Assembly: GCA_001803045.1 (NCBI GenBank)
Contig: MHAR01000026.1
Coordinates: forward strand, 1 to 33,646
DNA length: 33,646 bases
Direction of reading: 5' to 3'
DNA from: Ignavibacteria bacterium RIFOXYB12_FULL_35_14
GTDB taxonomy: Bacteria > Bacteroidota > Ignavibacteria > Ignavibacteriales > Ignavibacteriaceae
A program made the translations under genes and the position numbers. This document shows positions 208 through 31,933 of this stretch, one piece after another; within the stretch, counting starts at the first letter, position 1, and each line of letters starts with the position of its first letter. The notes beneath the pieces were generated by a model that had not been told where the DNA came from, did not search any database, and was given only the letters and a program-made list of their open reading frames with translations.

Positions 208-669
208 CTATTCTACATCCTCAAAAATAAATTTCTCATAAAAAACAACCTCAAATTTTTTTAACATTTCGATATATTCTTCTCTAAATGTTTTTTTCTG
301 GTGATGTTTTTCTTGGTTCTCAATGTACTTTATAACTTTGTCTAGTTGTGATCGTGAGTATGAAAATCCGCCATATCCCTCTTGCCAGCTAAATTTACCA
401 TGTAACCATCGCTGTTCGTTAACATAATTAGTTGAGCATCTTTTTACTTCCTTCACAAGATCTGAAAGCGCTTCGGCGGGATTTAATCCTATTAGGAAAT
501 GAATATGATTTGGTACTCCGTTAATTGAGATAAGCTTATGCTTCTTATTGCGAATTATTCCAGTCATATATTTGTAAAGATTTTCTTTCTTCGCACCGGG
601 AATTAAACAATGTCTGCCTTTCACTACAATCACAATTTGAATATAGATTTGTGTATAAGTGTTAGCCAT
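208..669 (-). CDS. REP-associated tyrosine transposase (RAYT; IS200/IS605-like Y1 transposase)
   Basis: This 153-residue protein belongs to the Y1 (HUH) single-strand transposase superfamily. These enzymes cut and join single-stranded DNA at hairpin-marked ends through a 5'-phosphotyrosine link. The HUH metal-binding motif is visible as HIH (residues 55-57, in PNHIHFLIG). The probable catalytic helix is VIKYIENQEKHH, with nucleophile Tyr115 and metal-ligand Gln119. The WQEGYGGFSYSRSQ stretch (95-108) is characteristic of the branch often called RAYT or 'transposase' in FCB genomes. The length is normal and no frame disruption is seen, so it may be active. No TnpB/IscB partner gene is adjacent. 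The palindromes at 114-191 lie on its 3' side. A GAAAGG ribosome-binding-like sequence precedes the ATG. The fold is confident. The choice between a RAYT and a free-standing IS is inferred from the missing tnpB and the flanking palindromes. Confidence 0.88.
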   Translation of the reverse strand: MANTYTQIYIQIVIVVKGRHCLIPGAKKENLYKYMTGIIRNKKHKLISINGVPNHIHFLIGLNPAEALSDLVKEVKRCSTNYVNEQRWLHGKFSWQEGYGGFSYSRSQLDKVIKYIENQEKHHQKKTFREEYIEMLKKFEVVFYEKFIFEDVE

Positions 670-31299: not shown

Positions 31300-31427
31300 T
31301 GTCCGTGATAATTAAGATTTATAAAATTCACACTTCCAAGTTTTCTGTCATCCCCACATAAATAAAATTATGTGAAAGACTTTTTATTGCATAAACTGTA
31401 AACATAAGGCAGGTATTTTAATTTTCG

Positions 31428-31513
31428 TACCGAAGGCCGGACTCGAACCGGCACGAGGTGTGAGCCCCACTGGATTTTGAGTCCAGCGCGTCTACCAATT
31501 CCGCCACTTCGGC
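31428..31513 (-). tRNA. tRNA-Leu (anticodon CAA)
   Basis: An 86-nt class II tRNA. The acceptor stem GCCGAAG/CTTCGGT has a first G-U pair and the discriminator is A. The D-arm region is GTGGCGGAATTGGTAGAC. The anticodon stem-loop is CTGGACTCAAAATCCAG with CAA. The long variable arm is GGGGCTCACACCTC and the T arm GCCGGTTCGAGTCCGGC. CCA is not encoded. On the minus strand it is preceded by two degenerate relatives. Confidence 0.96.
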
Positions 31514-31562
31514 ATAAGAACGAAAAAGACATTCCTAACGATTAAACTCTCGACAACCATTT

Positions 31563-31664
31563 GGTGTGAACCAGACCTACCAAACGAGTTAGTTAGGTAA
31601 ACTGGATTTTGAGTACAGTTTATCTACCAATTTATCCGCCTCAGGTGGATTCCGCCACTTCGGC
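31563..31664 (-). pseudogene. Degenerate, palindrome-bearing tRNA-Leu copy 1
   Basis: Read on the minus strand, it begins GCCGAAGTGGCGGAAT, identical to tRNA-Leu(CAA). It then carries an extra palindrome in the D-arm (ATCCGCC-TCA-GGTGGAT on the + strand, 31634-31650) and resumes ATTGGTAGA. The anticodon loop ACTCAAAATC is kept, but its stem is now AAACTG/CAGTTT. A long imperfect hairpin (ACCTACCAAAC against GTTAGTTAGGT on the + strand) sits at the variable-arm position. It ends at TTCACACC, with no T arm and no acceptor 3' strand, so it cannot be a normal tRNA. Confidence 0.75.
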
Positions 31665-31728
31665 CTAAAGAACAACAAATAATATAACCACTAATAGCCC
31701 AACACTATTAAGTTTACTATCAGCATTC

Positions 31729-31874
31729 GGTGTGAGCCTGACCAGCCTCTAAGGTTGGTAAACTGAATATTGAGTCCAGTTTATCCACAAGAGGTGGACA
31801 AGTCTACCAATTTATCCGCCTCCCTGGCACCCGTTTTCTATGATGGGCAGGCAGGCGGATTTCGCCACTTCGGC
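31729..31874 (-). pseudogene. Degenerate, palindrome-bearing tRNA-Leu copy 2
   Basis: Minus strand: starts GCCGAAGTGGCGAAAT, then a 47-nt palindromic insert in the D-arm (31814-31860, ends ATCCGCCT/AGGCGGAT), resumes AATTGGTAGAC. A second hairpin follows (TCCAC-AAGAG-GTGGA on the + strand, 31784-31798), then the anticodon arm with the same derived stem AAACTG/CAGTTT (31760-31765 with 31777-31782). At the variable-arm position is ACCAGCCT-CTA-AGGTTGGT (31741-31759). It ends at GGCTCACACC without T arm or 3' acceptor strand. It shares its derived stem and its 3' edge (CACACCGAATG-like) with copy 1, so the two have a common ancestor after divergence from the intact gene. Confidence 0.75.
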
Positions 31875-31933
31875 ATAAACACAAAACAAAAATAAATCTA
31901 AAGACTTAGATAGACAAATGAATTCACAGCGAA

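Follow-up and report, generated by a model that had tools for sequence, protein, structure and literature searches.

Hairpin-loaded 5' copies of tRNA-Leu(CAA) in an Ignavibacteria genome as probable remains of a small GIY-YIG nuclease element dwelling in tRNA genes

Endonuclease genes that reside in essential genes are known from fungal mitochondria. In the mORFs (Allomyces atp6; the gene hybrids of Glomus atp6, atp9, cox2 and nad3), the endonuclease gene carries a partial copy of its host gene, this carried copy restores the gene, the native part is displaced beyond the endonuclease gene, and one of the four Glomus cases is of the GIY-YIG type (PMC3630166). This logic is the closest known to that of the candidate element discussed below, in which a small GIY-YIG nuclease gene would inhabit tRNA genes. 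The mORFs described there lie in protein genes, at the 3' ends, and are mostly LAGLIDADG (PMC3630166), whereas the putative element concerns bacterial tRNA genes, either 5' or 3' halves, and a protein of ~80 residues that is nearly nothing but the domain; hairpin-broken halves, tandem arrays and an occurrence in several phyla likewise set it apart. Palindromes are familiar from other systems: Rickettsia palindromic elements invade genomes and are also reported beside a tRNA gene (PMC1950309), thus resembling our locus both in the invading palindromes and in the adjacency to tRNA genes. REP/RAYT systems share with it short dispersed palindromes, and Y1 transposase matches are present in the genomes checked; however, the palindromes at our locus are inserts and not the element itself, and their dispersal elsewhere in the genome fits the inserts, not the tRNA halves. 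To our knowledge, REPs carry neither tRNA halves nor a GIY-YIG gene, and we know of no Rickettsia palindromic element that is associated with a nuclease gene or with tRNA halves in duplicate. Free-standing and group I intron GIY-YIG endonucleases have the catalytic domain PF01541 in common with the nuclease studied here; a group I intron was dismissed as an explanation after an Rfam search of the window and 44 other loci returned no intron family at gathering score.

The stretch analysed here, called the window, comprises 33,646 nucleotides of Ignavibacteria bacterium RIFOXYB12_FULL_35_14 (contig MHAR01000026.1) and holds an intact tRNA-Leu(CAA) gene with two truncated units upstream of it (Table 1). 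The initial annotation, made from the letters alone, had described these units as beginning with the exact 5' end of the tRNA, which is the case over 16 bases in unit 2 (from 31664) and over 12 in unit 3 (from 31874). Its further statements that both units retain the D-to-anticodon order together with the CTCAA context, carry palindromes or hairpins at the D-loop and variable-region positions and are preceded, as is the intact gene, by similar leaders (GTTCTTAT, GTTCTTTAG and GTGTTTAT) were confirmed as well. Two statements had to be amended. The T arm is missing, as noted, and both units additionally reach the tRNA's own variable arm, of which a GGYTCACACC piece ends unit 2 at 31563 and unit 3 at 31729; both units end between the variable arm and the T arm. 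The changed anticodon stem has a paired AAACTG/CAGTTT core in both units, yet it is not paired throughout, as unit 2 bears a T.C mismatch directly above the core; the D-loop hairpin of unit 2 contains an A.C mismatch on the tRNA-sense strand. Neither unit was called as a tRNA by ARAGORN or Rfam, and we do not regard them as tRNA genes. The observation itself, namely hairpin-loaded copies of the tRNA 5' part upstream of tRNA-Leu(CAA), is confirmed.

Table 1. Features of the tRNA-Leu(CAA) locus, in window coordinates
Feature	Position	Strand	Evidence
Intact tRNA-Leu(CAA)	31428..31513	-	ARAGORN (31427-31513); Rfam RF00005, 60.4 bits
Unit 2: tRNA 5' part (1 to ~57) with hairpins in D-loop and variable region, without T arm	31563..31664	-	
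Unit 3: tRNA 5' part with three hairpins, without T arm	31729..31874	-	
D-loop palindrome, unit 2	31635..31649	.	
TAAA tail of the D-loop palindrome, unit 2	31631-31634		
Anticodon arm, unit 2 (stem lengthened by TAAA/TTTA)	31598..31622	-	
Variable-region hairpin, unit 2	31575..31598	.	
D-loop palindrome, unit 3	31815..31859	.	
Hairpin in the interval between D-loop and anticodon arm, unit 3	31784..31798	.	
Variable-region hairpin, unit 3	31741..31759	.	
Leader preceding the intact tRNA	31514..31521	-	
Leader-like stretch before unit 2	31665-31673		
Leader-like stretch before unit 3	31875-31882		
Broken GIY-YIG nuclease gene, 5' end only (25 codons followed by a stop)	31328..31405	-	tblastn

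The native arrangement can be read from G001, a genome of the same genus whose single tRNA-Leu(CAA) lacks upstream units. The flank upstream of this gene aligns unbroken to that of unit 3 and beyond it as far as tRNA position 16 (755 bp, 82.6%), and in G001 it belongs to the single intact tRNA; the tRNA and the downstream side align separately. The additional 361 bp are therefore placed inside the tRNA gene's own site, and it is the far unit that retains the native flank upstream. The continuation of the G001 flank into unit 3 exceeds what chance would give. The earlier suggestion that a leader plus the tRNA 5' part had been duplicated was right. G001 is free of units, not of the nuclease gene: a GIY-YIG gene start, cut by the contig end, follows its tRNA as well. 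A similar pattern is seen in G078 compared with G079, in G020 and G094 compared with G091, and in G015 compared with G099, where the match between the upstream flanks ends at the units, at a point 34-157 bp upstream of the tRNA in the unit-free genome; other unit-free pairs (G080 vs G021/G079, G014 vs G062/G060 and others) are too diverged or ambiguous for unit placement.

Similar units recur at the tRNA-Leu(CAA) genes of related genomes: among the 66 genomes of the family with the tRNA-Leu(CAA) locus in hand, 16 have extra same-strand pieces, found by 11-base seeds, one of which (G017) is doubtful, being a whole copy across an N run. The locus concerned (L063, 1501-1814) contains another complete tRNA-Leu(CAA), which has a similar leader and is connected through an N run, either a recent duplication or an assembly artefact. 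Extra pieces were seen at none of 20 sampled loci of other leucine tRNAs (11 UAA, 7 GAG and 2 CAG, which the pattern search had yielded incidentally; Fisher p 0.018). The pieces range from single halves (G034, G094) through near-complete copies (G029, G074) and downstream 3' parts (G031, G096) to a G020 array of nine palindrome-bearing 5' halves, each of 77 bp, and an anticodon stem lengthened as in unit 2 is also present in G029, G034, G009 and G074. At 5 of the 16 loci (L033, L037, L058, L064 and L070; in L037 counted from a TTG start), a GIY-YIG gene is the single small ORF between the piece and the intact tRNA. In another genome, G008, six nuclease-free units of ~73 bp lie upstream of tRNA-Met (L265, 948-1367 in reverse-complement coordinates), with the anticodon arm replaced by a hairpin of constant stem and variable loop; they are the clearest parallel to the window units.

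We consider it probable, at roughly 0.7, that the window units are displaced 5' halves of tRNA-Leu(CAA) originating from a small GIY-YIG mobile element that dwells in tRNA genes. An element of this kind that regenerates the tRNA gene would explain the recurrence as well as the linkage of nuclease and tRNA genes, the pieces of the same tRNA and the signal in the nuclease tree described below, and the intact tRNA of the window would be the regenerated copy. The window holds only a broken start of the nuclease gene, 22 bp downstream of the tRNA, which over 24 residues is 83% and 88% identical to the Leu-type proteins of L058 and L033 (tblastn E 2e-10 and 7e-11, respectively); the initial annotation had overlooked the nuclease gene linked to such copies. 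A total of 18 PF01541 matches were found in the window's genome, two of which fall in long frames (592 and 608 aa). Six of the remaining 16 adjoin tRNA-Asp, tRNA-Asn (two), tRNA-Ser(GGA) (two, in tandem) and tRNA-Ser(GCT), each with hairpin-broken pieces of the same tRNA nearby; beside the other ten, several of them at contig ends, no tRNA was seen.

A scan with four Leu-type proteins, by which the sample is biased to the Leu type, provided a broader set, from which the best 80 of 89 loci were taken; these include the query loci themselves (L127, L128, L130 and L144), three of which (L127, L128, L144) have the same sequence as the family loci L058, L064 and L070. The 80 loci belong to Ignavibacteriota, Bacteroidota, Balneolota, Patescibacteria and Omnitrophota, along with one MAG filed as Rhodobacteraceae, and cultured isolates are among them (Algibacter luteus, Winogradskyella ouciana, Algoriphagus chordae). 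At 71 of the 80 a same-strand tRNA lies within 450 bp, in 67 of these 71 within 150 bp of the nuclease gene. Four of the 71 have a far side too short to be scored (contig end). At 48 of the 67 scorable loci, a piece of the same tRNA was found beyond the nuclease gene with a cut-off passed by 1% of Markov-shuffled regions. Two arrangements occur, 5' half - nuclease - tRNA and tRNA - nuclease - 3' half, and the piece was detected at 33 of 36 loci with the tRNA downstream and at 15 of 31 with the tRNA upstream. The 19 loci at which no far-side piece was detectable include all eight of the Ser clade, and are mostly Patescibacteria Ser-type loci and other tRNA-upstream loci. The aligned bases of the pieces have a median identity of 99% to the intact tRNA, and 40 of the 48 pieces contain an internal hairpin insert (stem of at least 5), the other 8 having none; without the four query loci the counts become 67/76 for the neighbouring tRNA, 44/63 for the piece and 38/44 for the hairpin. 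Units are often tandem, and nuclease-free arrays exist. Taken at the level of sequence, these loci show one end of the candidate element supplying a complete tRNA and the other bearing part of that same tRNA again, in most cases interrupted by a hairpin.

The hairpins of the partial copies sit in a loop or near a stem junction. Of the 47 inserts no longer than 30 nt, 41 form stems of at least 6 (16% of shuffled inserts) and 24 stems of at least 8 (0.3%), the commonest being the 20-nt palindromes CCTGTCTGCCGACAGGCAGG (9) and CCTGCCTGCCGGCAGGCAGG (8). In the Leu pieces, 28 of 42 hairpin inserts occupy D-loop positions 14-23, 4 the 8/9 junction and the remaining 10 positions 25, 31, 39, 62-66 and 75-77, counts that are not independent, as many of the loci are related.

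A split tRNA gene is suggested by a Flavobacteriaceae MAG (L141), where the upstream piece starts with GCTCGAG and the downstream piece ends with the complementary CTCGAGT, while GCCTTGG/CCAAGGT is the acceptor of the intact tRNA that they enclose. The outer pieces look, on the basis of this pairing, like two halves of a single earlier tRNA gene that the nuclease gene and the intact tRNA have separated. The core of the downstream piece (24-64) equals that of the intact tRNA; hence, the intact copy is not wholly foreign, and room must be left for gene conversion or a close donor. The acceptor strand of the piece differs clearly from that of the intact tRNA in L141 and L150 and is the same in 25 of 33 5'-type pieces compared. 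Restoration of a conserved gene with displacement of its native part, as in mORFs, is thus found in L141, in the comparison with G001 and at the 48 loci with a far-side piece.

To guard against case selection, we took all PF01541 matches in seven near-complete genomes (84), from which we excluded 13 that fall in long frames (562-661 aa) and a further 4 that are weak fragments; the 67 left form 40 clusters, two of which, in G054, have common flanks and may be one place counted twice. As many as 22 of the 40 small GIY-YIG clusters are less than 500 bp from a tRNA gene, the nearest tRNA being on the same strand in all 22, whereas ~1.25% would be expected by chance with 42-47 tRNAs per genome (binomial 1e-31). 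An exact piece (at least 10 nt) of the neighbouring tRNA is present at 21 of the 22, a count without a null, and tandems of 2-5 nuclease genes make up 13 of the 22 tRNA-adjoining clusters vs 1 of the 18 others. The tRNA types concerned are Pro, Cys, Asn, Leu, Arg, Ser, Met, Asp, Val and Ala. The plainest plan is that of tRNA-Arg in G020, with three repeats of a hairpin-bearing 5' half followed by the nuclease ORF, which begins right where the anticodon arm ends, and after that the intact tRNA.

The nuclease has ~80-90 residues, little beyond the GIY-YIG domain, and PF01541 scored above its cut-off in all four proteins scanned (E 5e-18 to 5e-16). In 77 proteins the two Tyr, the Gly and the His are conserved in 77/77, the Arg in 76 and the Glu in 74; we take these to be the catalytic residues. 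Among seven Flavobacteriales dN/dS is 0.08-0.66, with dS > 1 in several pairs. Given the near-invariant residues and these ratios, the protein is, as far as conservation tells, maintained as an enzyme. The best matches among solved structures are UPF0213 proteins, followed by SLX1, which is a structure-specific nuclease; the intron-associated endonuclease of chain 1mk0, presumably I-TevI, matches weakly (E 0.003). Carriage on phages or plasmids was rejected, as tblastn of one Leu-type protein against phages and plasmids gave no match (E limit 1e-5) and, of 41 pattern matches in a single viral-contig scan, none was confirmed. The tree of the 77 proteins was built from 82 columns and leaves many forks unresolved. 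On it, 12 changes are counted in the amino acid of the adjoining tRNA against a mean of 22.2 in shuffles (0 of 400 as low) and 13 against 23.3 in the type of arrangement; the Leu isoacceptor does not clearly follow the tree (13 changes vs 14.6; 32 of 400 shuffles as low). The signal of the tRNA amino acid is partly shared with phylum, since phylum is clustered on the tree too (10 vs 17.2 changes; the amino acid on the same 57 rows, 8 vs 13.6). The group of 49 rows that contains the Leu loci (support 89/93) spans several phyla and includes one Asp and one Ser row.

Collectively, these data are compatible with the following course. The nuclease would cut or nick the tRNA gene, and repair would copy the element into the broken gene; the target would be rebuilt each time, arrays could grow through reinsertion or unequal exchange, and the nuclease gene might be lost later. 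REP-like hairpins would lodge in the tRNA loops of the freed copies, and a hairpin in the displaced half may remove a second target, may stop excision between direct repeats or may be a footprint of entry. The window would then represent a late stage, with two nuclease-free units and the broken downstream nuclease start of an element of the second arrangement. The units and the broken gene may come from different insertions, since the gene start lies on the opposite side of the tRNA from the units and the unit-free G001 has one too. Classic homing, in which the insert destroys its own site, does not fit unless an extra assumption is made, since the rebuilt tRNA restores any target that lies within it.

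The palindromes need not belong to this element. They are also found at a distance from tRNA genes, in some cases nested in other palindromes, and because of this dispersal we rejected the view that they are part of the tRNA element alone. Their derivation from the tRNA's own GGCGGAAT, proposed initially as a possibility, is not supported, as three of four exact genome matches to the palindrome type are outside the window and ARAGORN finds no tRNA there. Nor was a tRNA predicted in any of 15 palindrome stretches examined in G002, although two palindromes of that genome adjoin tandem GIY-YIG genes. Matches to Y1 transposases were found in 10 of 10 genomes checked, with nine in the window's genome, one of them (IS200/RAYT-like) within the window (313-657, minus strand). 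The palindromes may be ordinary REP-like insertions that favour loops. We do not claim the nuclease genes as their movers; over 146 order-level genomes, the number of 20-nt palindromes shows a weak correlation with that of GIY-YIG matches (Spearman 0.32, p 6e-5, uncorrected for kinship or genome size). In the window TAAA precedes and TTTA follows the anticodon arm, the same tails recur in L064, L131, L153 and L189, and in L064 they also surround the T arm. The odd but paired anticodon stem would then arise where the TAAA/TTTA tails of inserted palindromes meet around the arm, and it is better explained in this way than by selection on an RNA, which it does not require.

The strongest competitor of the nuclease element is a plain history of slippage and decay, in which the 5' region of the tRNA was duplicated in tandem, the copies decayed, REP-like palindromes moved by the Y1 (RAYT-like) transposase entered them and the nuclease genes are bystanders. 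It is close to the initial idea of pseudogenes invaded by REP-like palindromes, of which the palindromes in the copies stand and random decay is not the best reading. The dispersal of the palindromes and the nine transposase matches, one in the window itself, are what this history would predict, and the nuclease-free arrays of 77 bp in G020 and ~73 bp in G008 are satellite-like. However, bystanders would not be expected to adjoin tRNAs far above chance with pieces of the very same tRNA, or to form a tree that follows the tRNA amino acid; moreover, a median identity of 99% between pieces and intact tRNA is unlike long neutral decay, and a broken nuclease gene is present in the window. We therefore regard slippage and decay as unlikely, though clearly ahead of the two possibilities that follow.

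A tRNA-derived structured RNA family, kept upstream of tRNA-Leu for a function such as decoy, regulator or source of tRNA halves, was also raised in the initial annotation and appears highly improbable. The lengthened anticodon stem in several genera, the fold of unit 3, which is far better than that of shuffles (z -4.83), and the concentration of Leu hairpin inserts at the D-loop and the 8/9 junction (32/42) speak for it. A conserved RNA should be stable in every copy, and unit 2, folded in the same way, does no better than shuffles (z -0.51); the type, number and position of the hairpins vary by locus, pieces occur at just 16 of 66 loci, 5' and 3' halves are both used, and the palindrome tails account for the shared stem. 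Integrative elements whose tyrosine or serine integrases target tRNA genes typically end in partial tRNA copies, and the pieces might be attachment-site scars of such elements. This we find, by a small margin, more improbable still: the nuclease gene stands alone between piece and intact tRNA at the loci examined and in 67 of 71 cases within 150 bp of the tRNA, 5' halves are at least as frequent as 3' halves (33 vs 15 of 48 pieces), and many-piece arrays contain no cargo.

Returning to the GIY-YIG element, we tentatively propose, at somewhat less than even odds, that it represents a widespread minimal class in Bacteroidota, Ignavibacteriota and Patescibacteria, with a single GIY-YIG gene aimed at one tRNA type, a tRNA rebuilt upon insertion, a displaced half marked by a hairpin that removes it as a target, and, owing to the rebuilding of the target, growing tandem arrays and nuclease-free satellites like that of the window. 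Among the titles and opening abstract lines listed for open-licence papers, none describes GIY-YIG genes with tRNA pieces in bacteria, and the class seems to be undescribed. Since tRNA genes are essential and nearly universal, a one-gene element able to enter them without killing the host would have targets in almost every genome. Such a class would account for the abundance of small GIY-YIG genes here and for their frequent tandem arrangement, supply a bacterial counterpart to the mitochondrial gene-hybrid elements, offer a testable reason for hairpin-loaded tRNA fragments that resemble decayed pseudogenes and constitute a route for replacing a tRNA gene or a part of one.

In the census, 18 of the 40 clusters have no tRNA within 500 bp, one of them with a tRNA at 546 bp and one with a tmRNA at 164 bp. 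In the latter (L296, 543-1360), the GIY-YIG gene is downstream of the tmRNA gene and a 49-bp direct repeat lies on its flanks. The window's genome has a locus (L106, 1501-2515) with two tandem GIY-YIG genes and, behind them, a protein-coding gene with a duplicated start (75 bp), with N runs lying between; a protein gene may be a target too. Further GIY-YIG genes free of tRNA (L263, 1340-1930 in reverse-complement coordinates; L293, 870-1500; L255, L258, L259, L287 and L288) have copies of other dispersed, partly palindromic repeats on both flanks (TGTCATCCTGAA...TTCAGGATCT; CCCTGAGCGGAGTCGAAGGG) and may form a palindrome-linked sister class.
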